Shown here piece by piece: positions 18,949 to 26,248 of a stretch of DNA of 28,534 nt; within the stretch, counting starts at the first letter, position 1, and every line of letters starts with the position of its first letter. This stretch comes from a virus, in the IMG/VR virus record IMGVR_UViG_3300049812_003380, positions 1 to 28,534 of that record; one strand, written 5' to 3'. The notes under the pieces were generated by a model, which did no database searches, was not told the origin of the DNA, and saw only the letters and a program-made list of their open reading frames with translations. A program made the position numbers and the translations under genes.

Positions 18949-19179
18949 TTATTTTCTCTCTTTAGATGTGTCTTTTACAGTCTTCTGATGTGACTCTAGT
19001 GCATCCCATACTTCAACAGCAGACCAATGAGCCATGACACACTTTGATATGTCCTCATGTAAAATTTTCAACCAACTAATATCCACCTTTGCTGGCTTTC
19101 CTCTATTCTCAACGATATGATCTACCTCTGCGTGTGTGAGAGATATATACAGCTCACCACTTTGATATACTATTCTCAT
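18949..19179 (-). CDS. Small protein downstream of DNA polymerase, unknown
   Basis: The frame extends further to a TTG at 19194, but the ATG at 19179 follows GGGGAG at good distance and overlaps the polymerase stop as ATGA, so it is chosen here. The 76-residue product has MRIVYQSGELYISLTHAEVD, VDISWLKILHEDISKCVMAH and a Lys/Ser-rich end. It looks soluble, with a mixed alpha/beta fold. I recognise no family. The coupling to the polymerase gene suggests co-expression and possibly a replication-linked accessory role, though this is only inference. Confidence 0.55.
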   Translation of the reverse strand: MRIVYQSGELYISLTHAEVDHIVENRGKPAKVDISWLKILHEDISKCVMAHWSAVEVWDALESHQKTVKDTSKERK

Positions 19180-21056
19180 TTTGCTTCTCCCCAATTATTT
19201 CCTATTGCAACATCTACTTTAGATGGAACACTCATTTCAATCGAGTTTTCCATTATGTTCACTATTTTTTCTTTCATTTCTTTATCTCCGTTAAAACTTA
19301 TAGCCAACTCATCGTGAATTTGAATCATTGGTATAATTCCTTCTTTGTATAAGTCTACCATTGCTTTCTTTGTTTGATCAGCGGCAGACCCCTGTATTAA
19401 CCTATTTAACGCTTTATAGGTCCCTGATCTTTTCAGAGGAGTATATTCACCATACTCTTCCTTAGCCTTATCCAAAGGATAAGCACGATAGGAACCAAAA
19501 GCTTTTGGCTCCCATAATTCAAAACGACATCTCCTACCTAAAAAAGTTTTTACAGCACCTTTTTTTTGAGCGTGGTCAGACACTGCATCAGCTAATTGTC
19601 TAACAAACGGAACTCTTTCATTATACTGTTTAATGAGCTCCCGACCCTCTTCAGGTGCTATACCTAATTGATCAGAGAGTTTGCCCACACCCATACCATA
19701 AAATAAACCTAAATTAATAGTCTTAGCACTCTTACGAGGTATATTTCCTATCTCAGCCATAATTGTATGAAAGTCTGTTTCTTTATCCTCATTGTAAGCT
19801 TTTACAATTTTTTCAGCTCCCTCTAACTTAACAATATTTGCATAGTGACTAACTAATCGTGGCTCTTGTTGTGAGTAATCAAATGAACCCCACTTCTCCT
19901 CTTCCTCAGGTAAAAATAAACCTCTAATCAAAGAACCTATTTTTATATCTGACTCAGCGTCATCTTTAGCAGGAATTTGTTGTAAGTTAGGATTTGAATA
20001 ACTAAATCTGCCTGTTAATGTTCCCCCATTTTCAGTTCTTAGCTGATTAATATTAGCGTGTATCCTACCTTTATGTTGATACTTTTCTATCGTATGGAGA
20101 AACGTGGTCCGTGCTTTATTAAAGTTTCTAGCTTGAACTATTGCTTTTGGAATGGGATGAGGGTGAAACTCTAAAAAACTTTTTGTAAAAGATGGGTTAC
20201 CCTTATCTGTTTTAGGATACTCTATCTTACATTGATCAAATATAGTAGCTATTGATCTAGCCGCCCATATATCACATTTTAAATTAGTCTCACCAAAAAC
20301 ATATTTTAATAATTCATTCTCTTTCCTAATAAAAGATTTCTCAGCTTTTTTTAATTTTTCTAAATCAACCCTGACTCCTTTTTTTCTCATTTTCATTAAG
20401 ATAGGTATTAGGTCGGTTTCTAAATCAAAAATAGTTTGTAAATCTTGTTGAGTAATCTCAGGCTTTAGCCTGTCCCACAGTTTAAGAGACAATACAGCGT
20501 CTTGCTCTGCATACTCTCCTACATACTGTGAAGGTATTTTAAACATCTCGCTCTTAGCATCTACACCCCATTGAGCAGCAGTTTCATTTAATAAAAATTC
20601 ACTCTTACTCTCAGCTAAATATTCTTTGGAAACTGCGTTAAGAGAATAGCTATATTTATTTTCATTAATTAAAGGGGCTACGATCATGGTATCAATAATA
20701 CGACCATTCCATTTAACACCCTCAGCCTCTAACCAACCAAAATCATATGCAGCATTATGAGCGATCTTCTCACCCTCTCCTGAGAGCATTTCATTTAGCC
20801 AATCAAACACGACTCGTGAATCGTGATTAAATCCTGTCTCATGTCTGATAGGATAATAACCCTTCCAACCATCCACAGCTATGGCTATGCCAATTATCTC
20901 TCCATCATCAGTGGCCCAACCTGGACCTTTCTCCATTATGTTTGGATCTTTTGTTTCTAAATCTATAGCTATTTTATCTGCATCTTTTATGTTAGGAAAA
21001 TCCATGGGTGGAACCCATTCAGATTTAGGTTTGAACATACCTATTTGTTTGCTCAT
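19176..21056 (-). CDS. polA: Family A DNA polymerase with 3'-5' exonuclease
   Basis: The 626-residue enzyme copies the phage genome. The N-terminal DnaQ-type proofreading domain keeps all key residues: D32 and E34 (IDLET), D105 (HNAAYDFGWL) and Y182/D186 (YAEQDA). The palm and fingers show TGRFSYSNPNLQQIP (348-362), motif A with D393 (SFDYSQQEPR), motif B from R441 to G454 with K445, L449 and Y453, and motif C HDE at 581-583. The residue equivalent to E. coli Pol I Phe762 is Leu449. In surveys of viral Pol A (Schmidt, Nasko, Wommack and colleagues), Leu762 types were linked to slower, more accurate copying and to temperate or slow life cycles; that link is a published hypothesis. There is no 5'-3' exonuclease domain. 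It starts with an ATGA overlap with the helicase gene. Confidence 0.95.
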   Translation of the reverse strand: MSKQIGMFKPKSEWVPPMDFPNIKDADKIAIDLETKDPNIMEKGPGWATDDGEIIGIAIAVDGWKGYYPIRHETGFNHDSRVVFDWLNEMLSGEGEKIAHNAAYDFGWLEAEGVKWNGRIIDTMIVAPLINENKYSYSLNAVSKEYLAESKSEFLLNETAAQWGVDAKSEMFKIPSQYVGEYAEQDAVLSLKLWDRLKPEITQQDLQTIFDLETDLIPILMKMRKKGVRVDLEKLKKAEKSFIRKENELLKYVFGETNLKCDIWAARSIATIFDQCKIEYPKTDKGNPSFTKSFLEFHPHPIPKAIVQARNFNKARTTFLHTIEKYQHKGRIHANINQLRTENGGTLTGRFSYSNPNLQQIPAKDDAESDIKIGSLIRGLFLPEEEEKWGSFDYSQQEPRLVSHYANIVKLEGAEKIVKAYNEDKETDFHTIMAEIGNIPRKSAKTINLGLFYGMGVGKLSDQLGIAPEEGRELIKQYNERVPFVRQLADAVSDHAQKKGAVKTFLGRRCRFELWEPKAFGSYRAYPLDKAKEEYGEYTPLKRSGTYKALNRLIQGSAADQTKKAMVDLYKEGIIPMIQIHDELAISFNGDKEMKEKIVNIMENSIEMSVPSKVDVAIGNNWGEAK

Positions 21057-22657
21057 ATTCTGTAAGCCTCTCTTGATTGTGGTGTTATTATGTAAAGGTT
21101 CTCTTTAGCTCTTGAAAACGCCACATAGAAAAGTCTGTGTTCACTAATAGGATTTATCCTATATTCCTCATACGCCATTTTTCCTATGTCTAAAGACACG
21201 ATAACATTCTCTGCTTCTCCACCTTTTTGTTGATGAATTGTAGATAAAGTTACTCGTGGCTCTAAAGCTAAGTTCTCTCCTCTTGACTCTAAATTTTCTA
21301 AGTATGCAACAGTCTCAGTGTTAATTGTTGTCATAACCTTTGCCCAAGGAGTTCCGAACTCAGCTTGTAATCCAAAATTATCTTTGAGTTCTAAAAAAGA
21401 TAATTTTTTATCAGGTAAAGCTTTTCTTTGCTCAGATATTTTTTTCTTATTACCTCTAGCTACAAATTCTTTACCAAGACACTTATATAAATTTTCTACT
21501 AATCTAATTGGCACTTCGTTTCTTTCATCTCTCATCAAATCTTTCCAAGTAAGTATAGCATTTCTTTCTTGGGTTTTAACTGAATATCTATATTTATTAT
21601 CTTTTAGCTTGACTCTGAAAAAAATATTCTTCTTCCTCATGACCTCTTCCATGTCATCACGAATAGTTCTAGTTCTACCCATGATCAACCAAGTGCCCTG
21701 ATCCATGTTTAAATGATAAATACCTCTAATAAATTCTACTGCTCCATCTCTATTAGCAGGTGACCATTGTATGTCATCATATCCTATGATCTGTTCTTCA
21801 ACACGATTTACAATCTCCCAAACTTTCTTAGGAACTCTTTTTGATTTATCTAAAACAATTAATTCTTTTGCCTCTTCTTTTAACCGTATCGCTTTTCCAA
21901 CATCAGCGTCTGCCCAAGTATAAATAGCTTGATTAGGGTCCATTGCTAAATAAGACTCTTCAGAGTTACTCCAAATCTTTTCTGCCATTTTCCATTGTAT
22001 GGTAGACATGTCCTGAGACTCATCAAAGAATACAACCTTAAATGATTTATTATAATCACCCTCTACATAGTCTGTAATTAAGTCAGTAAAGTCTATTTTA
22101 GGCCCTTGTGATTTTACGAGAAAACCTTTTGAACCCCCTGTAAACTGCTCAAAACCGAATTTTTTATACTCTTTTAAGCCCTTATCTATGTACTCTAACT
22201 TATGCCATATGATGTCCTTAGCAAACATGGCCCAACAATCTCTTAAAGAGATGTCTCTTCTTTTTGCTTTTTCTATAAGGTCGATATATTTGTCATCATA
22301 GTTGTTGAAAAATATGTCATCGTCATTATTAACGTTAATATTAATCCTAAGTTCATTTGATACATTCCTCCAATCATTATTACTCATTATGTGTTCTCGT
22401 GTTAATCCCATTTGTCTTAATGCAAACGAGTGCATTGTACTAAAATGTTCTAGTTGATTCATAGGGACCTTAAATTTTTGTGACGCTCTCTCTTTTGCTT
22501 CATCCACTGCTTTATTAGAGAATGAAAAAAAAGCTATTTCATCTATACCCACATCGTTATCCAAATACTCTTCTATTTTATTTAGTATGAAAGTTGTTTT
22601 ACCAGTGCCCGGTGGACCGATGACAACTGTAGGTATTTTTTTATCCGATGAATTCAT
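21053..22657 (-). CDS. UvrD/PcrA-like SF1 helicase
   Basis: The 534-residue ATPase carries the SF1A helicase motifs: Walker A GPPGTGKTT (14-22), motif Ia near FFSFSNKAVDEAKERA, Walker B VVFFDESQDM with DESQ at 212-215, motif III LAMDPNQAIY (238-246), motif IV DKSKRVPKKVW, motif V TIHQQKGGEAENVIV, and motif VI HRLFYVAFSRAKENLY. It most likely unwinds DNA during replication or recombination, 3' to 5' as is usual for this family (known for the family, not shown here). It is shorter than UvrD (about 720) and has a reduced 2B region, which fits phage helicases. The start overlaps the preceding gene by 17 bases and its stop overlaps the polymerase start. Since no DnaB-type helicase is in the window, it may be the main fork helicase. 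Confidence 0.9.
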   Translation of the reverse strand: MNSSDKKIPTVVIGPPGTGKTTFILNKIEEYLDNDVGIDEIAFFSFSNKAVDEAKERASQKFKVPMNQLEHFSTMHSFALRQMGLTREHIMSNNDWRNVSNELRININVNNDDDIFFNNYDDKYIDLIEKAKRRDISLRDCWAMFAKDIIWHKLEYIDKGLKEYKKFGFEQFTGGSKGFLVKSQGPKIDFTDLITDYVEGDYNKSFKVVFFDESQDMSTIQWKMAEKIWSNSEESYLAMDPNQAIYTWADADVGKAIRLKEEAKELIVLDKSKRVPKKVWEIVNRVEEQIIGYDDIQWSPANRDGAVEFIRGIYHLNMDQGTWLIMGRTRTIRDDMEEVMRKKNIFFRVKLKDNKYRYSVKTQERNAILTWKDLMRDERNEVPIRLVENLYKCLGKEFVARGNKKKISEQRKALPDKKLSFLELKDNFGLQAEFGTPWAKVMTTINTETVAYLENLESRGENLALEPRVTLSTIHQQKGGEAENVIVSLDIGKMAYEEYRINPISEHRLFYVAFSRAKENLYIITPQSREAYRI

Positions 22658-23738
22658 GTGCGTAACAGACTCTTTCTTTGTGTTTCTCTCTCAACTCTTT
22701 AGAATAACCACCGAAGTTAGGAGACTTTTTTTTACCTGAAGCAATTCTATCTAACTCTTTTTCATAGTCCTCTTTTCTATGTTGTTTATTATGTGTGGTG
22801 GGTCTCCACTTTTCAGGATGAGCCTCTCGATACTCACCAAACCTAGGGTGAGCTGTTTTAGAAAAGAAACGATGACCGATGTTCGTGAACTGTTGTGCAA
22901 CTGCCTCTGATAATCGGACTCCTAAACCTAAACCTTGAAAATCAGGTAGTATCACTGTTCTATGCTCTCTCCACGCTTTTTCTTTGATTGTTCCTGAGGG
23001 GAAGAAAATAACTGAAGCAAATCCAACTGTTGTTCCTTCCCATGTTCCGAGCCAACATCGTGATGCGTTACTGATGTCTGCTGTGAGATAGTGATGGTCA
23101 GCGAAGTATGGCCATATTTTGGGGGAACAAGGAACGACTTCCAAAACGACCTTGGGTCGCCTAAGTAACCCCCTTGTCACAACTTTGCTTGAGTTTGTAT
23201 CGTAAACCCAATCAGGTTGTAACCAATCGATTATATCATAATGACAAGATGCAAAGACCACATTTTTAATTTTTTTATTTCTTATAAATTTTTGTAAAGC
23301 GTTAGAACAAGACTTAGCCACGTTACGATCAACAACACTAGTAAACTCATCTATGACTGCATTATCCTTCACACGTCTAGCCAAGTCAGACCTAAACTTT
23401 TCTCCTGTGCTTAGAACATGATATGGCCTCATCCAAGAGGGTATGGTGTTGAAACCAACACAAGATAATCTCTCCTGAGCTTCCTCAGGACTATCGAAAT
23501 GTGAACAAACTGCTTTATTTTTGTCCCAAACAATATTTTCTTCCTGACCAAACTCTTTCAATAAACTTGATTTACCACTTCCTGAAGCTCCCACTATAAG
23601 CCCTATGTTAAATTCTTGTGTGGGTTTTTGAAAGTCAGGTAGAACAAACTCTGTTTGACCATTGAATTCATAATCAAACATTCTACTAATTTCACTAGTA
23701 ATATTGTCTACTTGAACTTGTGATGTTAATTTTTTCAA
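22641..23738 (-). CDS. ABC-type ATPase fused to GNAT acetyltransferase (COG2401-like)
   Basis: The 365-residue protein has two domains. Residues 1-190 form an ABC-type ATPase: Walker A GASGSGKSS (50-58), signature LSTGEKFRSDLA (109-120), Walker B with D130 and E131 (AVIDEF) and an H-loop at H166 (ASCHYD). Residues 200-365 form a GNAT acetyltransferase: a beta block with WLGTWEGTTVGFASV and motif A RTVILPDFQGLGLGVRL with Q268, G269, G271 and G273, then a Lys-rich end. There are no membrane segments, so it is not a transporter. The fusion matches the rare COG2401 type (ABC ATPase fused to a predicted acetyltransferase), whose function is unknown. The start is a TTG that overlaps the primase stop (TTGA) about 10 bases after GGAGG. 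It may couple ATP binding to acetylation of a host or phage protein, or of DNA-bound factors; this is inference. Confidence 0.82.
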   Translation of the reverse strand: MKKLTSQVQVDNITSEISRMFDYEFNGQTEFVLPDFQKPTQEFNIGLIVGASGSGKSSLLKEFGQEENIVWDKNKAVCSHFDSPEEAQERLSCVGFNTIPSWMRPYHVLSTGEKFRSDLARRVKDNAVIDEFTSVVDRNVAKSCSNALQKFIRNKKIKNVVFASCHYDIIDWLQPDWVYDTNSSKVVTRGLLRRPKVVLEVVPCSPKIWPYFADHHYLTADISNASRCWLGTWEGTTVGFASVIFFPSGTIKEKAWREHRTVILPDFQGLGLGVRLSEAVAQQFTNIGHRFFSKTAHPRFGEYREAHPEKWRPTTHNKQHRKEDYEKELDRIASGKKKSPNFGGYSKELREKHKERVCYAHEFIG

Positions 23739-25294
23739 AACGGTATATCCTCCTCTATATCTTTTTGTTGTTTCATTTCAGGAACCTCTAATTCAACCTC
23801 ATCAATTGTCAGTTGTTTTATTTTCCAAAGTCTAACTCTAGTATTTTTAATAGTTCTAATTAAATCATCTGCATTATACTCTTCTTTAAGTCTCATCGTG
23901 ACCCAAGGTCGAGTCTCTTTAAAATCATTTCTCTTCAAGTGGTCCATCAAATCTTTTAAAGCAAAATATGTAAACCCATCCTCTGTATATGATTTACCTA
24001 AAAATATGTCAGCTATTGTCAAAGCCTCTCCCTGATGCAAACAAAACTCTTCCAACAACTCTTTGAACTCTCCTTTTTTTGTAACCTCCTCAGGTGGATA
24101 ATCAATCGATATGCTTTCAAATAAACTACTATAAGTTTGGTTCCACTCAGCAGAACTCATATTCATAATCCCTGTATTTAATTGTTCTAGACAGGCCTGA
24201 ATAATTTTTTTGTGAGTCATTAAATCTTCAGTGTTAGCTATCTCTATTCTTCTATCATCGACATTTAAAAAATACCTAGGTGGGTCTGACTTATAAACTT
24301 TTAAATCTGAGTAAACAGGATGATCTCGATCTCCCTCACTGCCAATACCAAACTTTCTTTTCTTACAAAGCCTTTTATTACATAAAGATTCTATTGGTGG
24401 TTGAGTGCAACGATACATATATTTAGGAGCACCATTACCATCACTCTGACTTACTTGTTTTATTACTATTAATACTTCATCAGATTTTAAAGGTGGAGTA
24501 ATATAGCTTCTATTATAATCCTCTATTAATTCTTTAAAACTATCAGGATCTGCTTTACGATAGTATACGCCTACGTTGAACAGAGCATTATTCCGGGAGC
24601 CATCGGAAACACCCTGTTCAGTAAGTATTTGTAGGCATGGAGGTCCGTCTTTAATAACCTCGTTCTTGAAGTCAGTTTTAATTGACTTTAGAGCGCCAAC
24701 AACAAGGGTATCGTAGTGAGAAAGAAACTCTTCTAAACTTAATGCGTTACCTAATTCATTTATTCCATAACGACTTCTGCCATGATAGGGCAAGTTAATC
24801 CAACTCCCTGTATCTCTTTTTTCCTCTCCCTCTCTTTGATAAAGTTCTATCTGTTTTGGAAACACCTCAGCTTTAGGATAGCCAATGGCTGTGGCCATCT
24901 CGCTAAGTTTAGTTTGCATGTCCTTTGCTGAAACATACTGTTTTGTAAATAAATATAAATGTGCGCCACCACTTTTTGATAGACACATAATTAAGGGAAA
25001 CTTTTTTTGTTTTATCTTTTTTAATAATATTTTGTAGTCTAAGGGATAGACATCTATGTCAATTGCTCCAAACTTACATTTGTCATCATCGTTTATGGGA
25101 ACTATTCCCATTGCAGGATATTCTCCTAATAAATGTTTTTTAAATTTTTCAATTGATGGTGGCTCGTGGACCGTTTTCATATGAGCCTCGACCTTTACGC
25201 CTTCCTGTGGCTCATTCTTTTTTTCAAAGACACCGTGGGCCCTCTCAAGACCTGTGAAGATGTCTTTAAATTTTTGTACTAACTCTAGCTCCAT
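23735..25294 (-). CDS. Archaeo-eukaryotic-type primase with PriL-like Cys domain and DIPF tail
   Basis: The 519-residue protein begins with an AEP catalytic domain: FGAIDIDVY with D79 and D81 (metal binding), SKSGGAHLYLF with H112, and KAEVFPKQIE (E143), then GSWINLPYHG. This set resembles the primases of TOTE-type elements and other phages. Residues about 215-320 carry a PriL-like pattern: GPPCLQIL, then GSRNNALFN, and YRCTQPPIESLCNKRLC, giving four cysteines (220, 296, 305, 310) that could hold a 4Fe-4S cluster or zinc. The rest is helical, winged-helix-like. It ends KQQKDIEEDIPF, like the tail of E. coli SSB. Its likely job is to make primers for Leader and lagging strands beside Pol A. 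The start ATG follows AGAGG, 17 bases from an inverted repeat. Family by motifs; activity not tested. Confidence 0.82.
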   Translation of the reverse strand: MELELVQKFKDIFTGLERAHGVFEKKNEPQEGVKVEAHMKTVHEPPSIEKFKKHLLGEYPAMGIVPINDDDKCKFGAIDIDVYPLDYKILLKKIKQKKFPLIMCLSKSGGAHLYLFTKQYVSAKDMQTKLSEMATAIGYPKAEVFPKQIELYQREGEEKRDTGSWINLPYHGRSRYGINELGNALSLEEFLSHYDTLVVGALKSIKTDFKNEVIKDGPPCLQILTEQGVSDGSRNNALFNVGVYYRKADPDSFKELIEDYNRSYITPPLKSDEVLIVIKQVSQSDGNGAPKYMYRCTQPPIESLCNKRLCKKRKFGIGSEGDRDHPVYSDLKVYKSDPPRYFLNVDDRRIEIANTEDLMTHKKIIQACLEQLNTGIMNMSSAEWNQTYSSLFESISIDYPPEEVTKKGEFKELLEEFCLHQGEALTIADIFLGKSYTEDGFTYFALKDLMDHLKRNDFKETRPWVTMRLKEEYNADDLIRTIKNTRVRLWKIKQLTIDEVELEVPEMKQQKDIEEDIPF

Positions 25295-25414: not shown

Positions 25415-26248
25415 TTAGAATGGTATATCACCACTCTGCGAGGACTCCCCTTGCGGGGAACTTGTTTCATCTTCCTGAGGAGCAACTTTAAGCTCCCCAC
25501 TATGAATATCTTTTTCAAACTTCATAGCATCAGCTAAGATGTCCTCAAGCTTAGCTAATCCTAATTCGTCTACCCATTTGTTTTGACTTATTAGCCAACC
25601 ATGCCAACTACCCTGATCATTTTTTTCAGGTTTACCTGACAAATTGTATGACATTGCAAAGTCTTTAGGTTGATAGATGTCATTACCGTCAACTCGTCTT
25701 TGATTTGACATTACCGAGTTCCATTGCTTAGACTTTTTAAGTTGAGATCCCTTCATTTTAATAAGGGCTTTGTACCAACTTTGTCCATCAATAACTATGA
25801 CATAATGCTCTGCTGTATTCTCAACATAAGTATCAGGTTTACCCACGAAGCGATCTTTTTTATCTTCTCCTCGAACTATCTTTCCATCTTTTTGAAAAGC
25901 CTGAAACTCGTCAGGTAGGTATTCACTGATAGGAGCTTTATTTTTTGTCCTGTCATTGTACCACTCTACATATCTCCTTCTGAAATATATTGGCAATACT
26001 GTCAATACATCACTACATGTTTCTGTAACTGTATTAAATATTTGTCCCTTTTTAGCACCTTGAATATACTTTTCATTCTCCTCATCAACTTGAGGTGAAC
26101 CCTTACTTAGCATATTAAGGTAAGGTATTGCATAGTCCTCAGCTTCTCTGACTGATAGAGGCTCTGACTTTAAAATTGCATTTAATTGTACTTGTGCAAC
26201 TTCTTTCTTTTCGTTTTTCGCTACTTGCTTTTTTGCTGTCTCTGTCAT
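25415..26248 (-). CDS. Putative single-stranded DNA-binding protein (C-terminal DIPF)
   Basis: The 277-residue protein has a Lys/Glu-rich N-terminus, then a core with KKGQIFNTVTETCSDVLTVL followed by PIYFRRRYVEWY, YVENTAEHYVIVIDGQSWYK and ALIKMKGSQLKKSKQWNSVM. This core recurs in marine and other phages with replication genes. The last part is acidic and Ser/Gln-rich and ends GDIPF, the same final residues as E. coli SSB (DFDDDIPF), the peptide that recruits partner enzymes. A role as ssDNA-binding protein or replication mediator fits the tail and the operon but the fold is not confirmed. The gene starts directly after the previous stop (TAAATG). The next gene's protein, the primase, has the same ending, so both may dock to the same partner. 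Confidence 0.62.
   Translation of the reverse strand: MTETAKKQVAKNEKKEVAQVQLNAILKSEPLSVREAEDYAIPYLNMLSKGSPQVDEENEKYIQGAKKGQIFNTVTETCSDVLTVLPIYFRRRYVEWYNDRTKNKAPISEYLPDEFQAFQKDGKIVRGEDKKDRFVGKPDTYVENTAEHYVIVIDGQSWYKALIKMKGSQLKKSKQWNSVMSNQRRVDGNDIYQPKDFAMSYNLSGKPEKNDQGSWHGWLISQNKWVDELGLAKLEDILADAMKFEKDIHSGELKVAPQEDETSSPQGESSQSGDIPF

Follow-up and report, generated by a model that had tools for sequence, protein, structure and literature searches.

Enzymes of the TmcA/Kre33/NAT10 group, in which an ATPase module is fused to a GNAT domain, make N4-acetylcytidine in RNA using ATP. COG2401, an ATPase of the ABC type joined to a putative acetyltransferase, is the same kind of fusion as the one described here by name only, and no paper in the literature searched mentions it. 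For phages, Iyer et al. (2013) predicted that an ABC-ATPase-coupled GNAT acylates a DNA base, as restated in PMC7824862, which gives Tenacibaculum phage pT24 as the example. In the literature searched, which had most subscription papers outside it, we found no experimental test of any ABC-GNAT member. The gene described here comes from a 28.5-kb virus record (the window, that is, the whole stretch of 28,534 nucleotides that was analysed) and is a new addition to this already predicted family, whose chemistry, DNA substrate and function we infer below. The in silico prediction of ATP-driven DNA-base acyltransferases by Iyer and Aravind (2013, 2021) is the reading that fits it best.

The ABC-GNAT gene lies in a replication operon

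The open reading frame proposed by the initial annotation, and its place between a primase and a helicase, were confirmed; the annotation had given no strand, and the reading frame runs on the minus strand, as does the rest of the operon:

25415..26248, minus strand, Pam3 gp34-like protein in the same operon as the ABC-GNAT gene
23735..25294, minus strand, AEP (TOTE-type) primase with PriCT-1, the upstream neighbour, overlapping by 4 nt
23749..23754, minus strand, AGGAGG ribosome-binding site within the end of the primase gene, 10 nt before the TTG
22641..23738, minus strand, ABC-ATPase/GNAT fusion gene, 365 aa, TTG start at 23738, TAA stop
21053..22657, minus strand, UvrD/Rep-type helicase, the downstream neighbour, its start overlapping the ABC-GNAT gene by 17 nt
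19176..21056, minus strand, family A DNA polymerase with 3'-5' exonuclease, following the helicase

The overlap with the primase consists of the four nucleotides TTGA, at the primase stop. Because the gene overlaps both its neighbours, translational coupling on both sides is plausible. Genes resembling Pam3 gp32, gp33 and gp34, of unknown function, are located ahead of the primase. A promoter scan returned fewer sites than in shuffled sequences, and no transmembrane transporter partner was seen beside the ABC-GNAT gene in the window's operon.

Both halves of the protein retain their motifs

The motifs of the two domains are the following:

23568..23591, minus strand, Walker A GASGSGKS (G50-S57), K56 invariant
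23400..23414, minus strand, ABC signature LSTGE (109-113)
23346..23357, minus strand, Walker B VIDE (128-131), catalytic E131 invariant
23328..23339, minus strand, D-loop SVVD (134-137)
23241..23243, minus strand, H-loop histidine H166, invariant
23085..23096, minus strand, HHYL (215-218), between GNAT helix 1 and strand 2, H216 and Y217 invariant or nearly so
22959..22961, minus strand, R260 in GNAT strand 4, invariant
22920..22937, minus strand, acyl-CoA pyrophosphate loop QGLGLG (268-273) of the GNAT domain
22806..22808, minus strand, W311, invariant
22644..22658, minus strand, C-terminal strand HEFIG (361-365), family pattern [HF]x[YF][IV]G

Across 95 aligned relatives, the invariant residues of the ABC half were G50, S52, G53, G55, K56, S110, G112, D130, E131 and H166, and those of the GNAT half F212, Y217, R260, P265, G269 and W311, with H216 nearly so. 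Since the Walker A, signature, Walker B and H-loop positions and the GNAT residues are invariant, both activities are expected to be intact in the window protein. It scored above the Pfam cut-off for GNAT (PF00583, E 4.9e-7) and below that for ABC_tran. Its AF2 model (mean pLDDT 95, pTM 0.89) matched the nucleotide-binding domains (NBDs) of ABC proteins with a Foldseek probability of 1.0. The fusion of an ABC ATPase with a GNAT domain, as originally annotated, is thus borne out by the intact ABC motifs, the PF00583 match, the QGLGLG loop and the AF2 fold.

The same annotation had described the ATPase as SMC/Rad50-like, a description that we do not retain. The solved folds nearest to the ABC half in Foldseek searches were transporter NBDs (MetN, MacB, MJ0796), and SMC or Rad50 heads were absent among the best 50 listed solved structural matches. 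Only about 52 residues separate the Walker A from the signature (K56 to L109), so the long coiled-coil insertion of an SMC/Rad50-type ATPase has no room there, and this assignment was rejected.

A widespread family with two clades

PHROG 11143, a family of unknown function, matched the protein over its full length (residues 5-365 of 365, E 2.5e-113). Relatives were retrieved from 51 annotated phage records, from at least about 600 viral stretches and from 444 genome stretches, many of them planctomycete and Nonomuraea contigs. Judging by the terminase genes beside them, many of the genome copies are likely prophages. With so many viral and genome stretches carrying relatives, the open reading frame is not a chance one, and the family, at first taken for a rare one, proves to be widespread, with hundreds of members. 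Against known defence families, PADLOC returned only a weak local match, to mads_3; as no full-length match was found, an anti-phage defence protein was rejected.

A tree of 129 dereplicated members resolved two clades with a support of 0.98, namely the window's clade (n=58) and a sister clade (n=71). A named replication or recombination neighbour was present for 6 of the 58 members of the former and for 1 of the 71 of the latter, and primase or UvrD neighbours were confined, among the 129, to the window's own near relatives. The position within the primase-helicase operon is therefore real but local to close relatives. The target in replication that had been proposed at the outset is not supported on the genomic part of the standard that the annotation itself had set for its refutation, most homologues lying outside replication contexts. 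The operon position may bear on the timing of modification rather than on what is modified.

The two clades differ in their partners. A ParB-like gene is adjacent or near in 62 of the 71 dereplicated sister-clade members, and 32 of them have terminase genes no more than four genes away, against 2 of 58 in the window's clade. ParB is absent in 53 of the 58 members of the window's clade and near in two (L204 and L258). No ParB-like partner adjoins the window gene, and none was found in eight related contigs of up to 64 kb. DNA methyltransferases are encoded at most two genes away in several separate lineages of the window's clade, Pfam-confirmed in two loci (L050, L259) and identified by motif in others (L047-L049, L201, L203, L235 and Aeromonas phage PX29). 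Of ten relatives of the window's virus, one had an N6/N4 methyltransferase. Among the neighbour clusters, no translation or tRNA genes recurred next to ABC-GNAT.

Some loci have further genes of note beside the ABC-GNAT gene. A second, stand-alone GNAT half of the same family is encoded directly downstream in one of them (L243:7113-7715), while in another an ABC-GNAT gene of the window's clade overlaps at its end with the gene of a protein carrying two ParB domains in tandem (L258:2770-3960). In Pseudomonas and Porphyromonas phages without ParB beside, a formyltransferase-like gene directly follows (L096:4987-5604, L097:4849-5322).

ParB partners and exchange with Mom

In Arthrobacter phage EastWest, a ParB gene is followed by ABC-GNAT at the place where phage Sonny has ParB, a small gene and Mom. 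The flanks of the two loci are homologous (gp68/gp73 64%, gp72/gp78 80% and the sliding clamp 45% identity), and the ParB proteins share 57% identity. The same kind of ParB adjoins Mom in 72 of 84 loci and is near in 7 more, in a sample drawn with an alignment led by a Microbacterium Mom and hence biased to that clade. In one member of the sister clade, on a contig of a Gemmataceae genome, ParB, ABC and GNAT are joined in one chain of 611 aa (L133:5191-7026).

The ParB partners also matched, at E down to 6e-53, the N-terminus of phrog_498, a family of phage DNA methyltransferases. A separate census, based on a tighter ParB alignment, yielded 69 readable loci, of which 9 had ABC-GNAT, 8 were fusions of ParB with a methyltransferase and about 50 had partners of other kinds; the same census with EastWest gp74 as the single query gave no matches. 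One locus of the census (L426), with its near-copy L427 in the same group, turned out to be followed by a DNA methyltransferase. On these counts, ParB is an adaptor that serves several uses. Because its partners are so mixed, ParB alone is weak evidence for DNA modification, and the exchange with Mom carries more weight. ParBs beside ABC-GNAT (L092:3432-3986) and beside Mom (L293:4145-4720, L292:4469-5002) have a common core and a different C-terminal tail, a conserved tail versus a CPxC-type, zinc-ribbon-like one, and the type of tail perhaps matches the enzyme served.

The models of the two proteins also share neighbours, in that, of the 50 viral structures closest to the window model, about 20 were also among the best 50 of a Mom model, an overlap to which generic GNAT similarity contributes. 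The Mom model matched the ABC-GNAT protein of Leptospira phage LE4 (E 1.9e-5), which ranked above several generic GNATs. H216 and Y217 of the window protein occupy, in AF2 models as in alignments, the same structural place as H22 and Y23 of Mom.

A candidate frameshift between ABC and GNAT in Firmicute phages

In a group of Firmicute phages (P335, Javan523, Javan141, Javan420, phiGBSVK, MismyG and Oenococcus), the HYL codons mark the end of the ABC frame, and GNAT is encoded in a frame offset by -1. The loci with this offset are L091 (P335), L089, L455, L456, L457 and L099 (streptococcal phages) and L088 (Oenococcus). Over the 78-nt overlap of five streptococcal phages, differences by codon position were 30/6/49 in the GNAT frame and 6/49/30 in the ABC frame; constraint on the overlap thus acts on its reading as GNAT and not on its reading as ABC. 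Ahead of the ABC stop, the GNAT frame has 34 codons free of stops, and none of these is ATG, GTG or TTG. Selection on a frame with no start codon of its own suggests programmed -1 ribosomal frameshifting at the ABC/GNAT junction of these phages. No slippery site common to all the -1 offset Firmicute phage genes was found.

Proposed function and alternative explanations

We consider it probable, with moderate confidence, that the product of this gene is an ATP-driven DNA-base acyltransferase acting on the DNA of the phage itself. Five lines of evidence argue for this function: the EastWest/Sonny exchange, the ParB partnership, the methyltransferase neighbours, the structural overlap with Mom and the prediction of Iyer et al. 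Against it count the null HHalign result for Mom (given below), the mixed partners of ParB, the relatives of the window's virus, which have no ParB and, but for one, no N6/N4 methyltransferase, and the transporter-NBD folds. Two ABC halves would close head-to-tail around ATP, with the signature of each facing the partner's Walker A, and so hold DNA in a clamp. ATP hydrolysis would then reshape the clamped DNA, allowing a base to reach the GNAT pocket, where acyl-CoA would be held by the QGLGLG loop, with the invariant His-Tyr near the acceptor, and the acyl group would be transferred to an exocyclic amine of the base. DNA so modified would resist host nucleases, and acylation would most probably serve to hide phage DNA from bacterial defences, so that the counter-defence purpose suggested in the initial annotation appears likely. 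In most sister-clade relatives, the ParB-like partner likely loads or directs the enzyme. In the window's clade, ParB would have gone and the window gene would have been captured into the primase-helicase-polymerase operon; modification may therefore be timed with replication.

The annotation had imagined an ATP-gated acetyltransferase acting on DNA-bound proteins. Its idea of an ATP-gated acyltransferase is supported; the genomic context points to DNA bases, rather than DNA-bound proteins, as the substrate. A protein acetyltransferase serving host takeover or tuning of the phage replisome, whose ABC half binds DNA or a partner while the GNAT half acetylates lysines of DNA-bound proteins, is nevertheless an explanation to be weighed, and in our judgement an unlikely one. 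The targets of most GNATs are amines of proteins or small molecules, the gene does lie between a primase and a helicase, and phage GNATs acting on host proteins exist, such as Rac of phage phiKMV, which acetylates the host RNA polymerase (PMC7824862). However, the replication neighbours are confined to close relatives, and it is ParB, terminase and DNA methyltransferase genes that adjoin the family, which also swaps place with Mom. Those neighbours indicate DNA equally against an RNA-base acetyltransferase like TmcA/NAT10 acting on host or phage tRNA or rRNA, a very improbable reading given also the lack of recurrent translation or tRNA genes among the neighbour clusters, even though ATP-using ATPase-GNAT fusions on RNA bases exist and ABC-F translation factors were among the profile matches of the ABC half.

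Least probable of all, in our estimate, is a packaging or DNA-segregation factor, in which ParB and a soluble ABC ATPase would bring DNA to the packaging motor under regulation by the acyltransferase. The frequent terminase and ParB genes of the sister clade are what such a factor would predict, but the window's clade has neither adjoining it, Mom, a DNA modifier, occupies the same slot, and a late position beside the terminase would also suit DNA modification before packaging.

If a DNA-base acyltransferase is indeed encoded, hundreds of phages and prophages may make a DNA base so far undescribed, using ATP in a way unlike that of Mom. More tentatively, an ABC ATPase working as an ATP-gated DNA clamp may present bases to its fused acyltransferase and so produce a new acylated base in many phages. 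Such an enzyme would be interchangeable with Mom as the partner of one ParB targeting factor, and in Firmicute phages programmed -1 frameshifting would set its ratio of ABC-only to ABC-GNAT chains. Relatives are present in cultured phages that grow on laboratory hosts, namely Aeromonas PX29, Lactococcus P335, Arthrobacter EastWest, Rhodococcus phage Jace and Leptospira LE4, and EastWest and Sonny form a natural control pair, their common locus holding ABC-GNAT in EastWest and Mom in Sonny.

Comparison with known systems

The predicted ABC-GNAT system has the same pair of domains, and phage pT24 carries a relative that shares 39% identity with the window protein over 96% of its length, although the accession given in the paper (QAX98348.1) differs from those of the pT24 record (BAV39160/BAV39159). 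An in-frame stop at codon 254 interrupts the deposited pT24 gene (L001:5956-7128) within its GNAT domain.

TmcA/Kre33/NAT10 are the nearest analogy in mechanism, as ATPase-GNAT fusions acting on a nucleic-acid base. They differ in their helicase-like ATPase, in their RNA substrate and in having no ParB partner. In its ATPase the window protein is not of the TmcA type, as it has an ABC signature and an NBD fold in place of the helicase-like module.

Membership in the Mom family was rejected. The Mom profile (PF25680) gave no match to the window protein at E up to 1, and HHalign comparisons of the GNAT half with Mu Mom and with 84 Mom sequences returned probabilities of 0.4-0.6%, which are not significant; with no significant link, the GNAT half may share just the superfamily fold. 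Aeromonas phage PX29 (L003, GU396103) encodes ABC-GNAT and, at a separate place in the genome, a relative of Mom, and the two can therefore coexist. What the window protein has in common with Mom of phage Mu is the GNAT fold with an invariant His-Tyr placed after helix 1 and before strand 2, where HHYL corresponds to an HYS that is invariant in Mom, as well as the same kind of ParB partner and, in Arthrobacter phages, the same locus. The window protein keeps a QGxGxG acyl-CoA loop that is not evident in Mom, and it is fused to an ABC ATPase, whereas Mom works without one.
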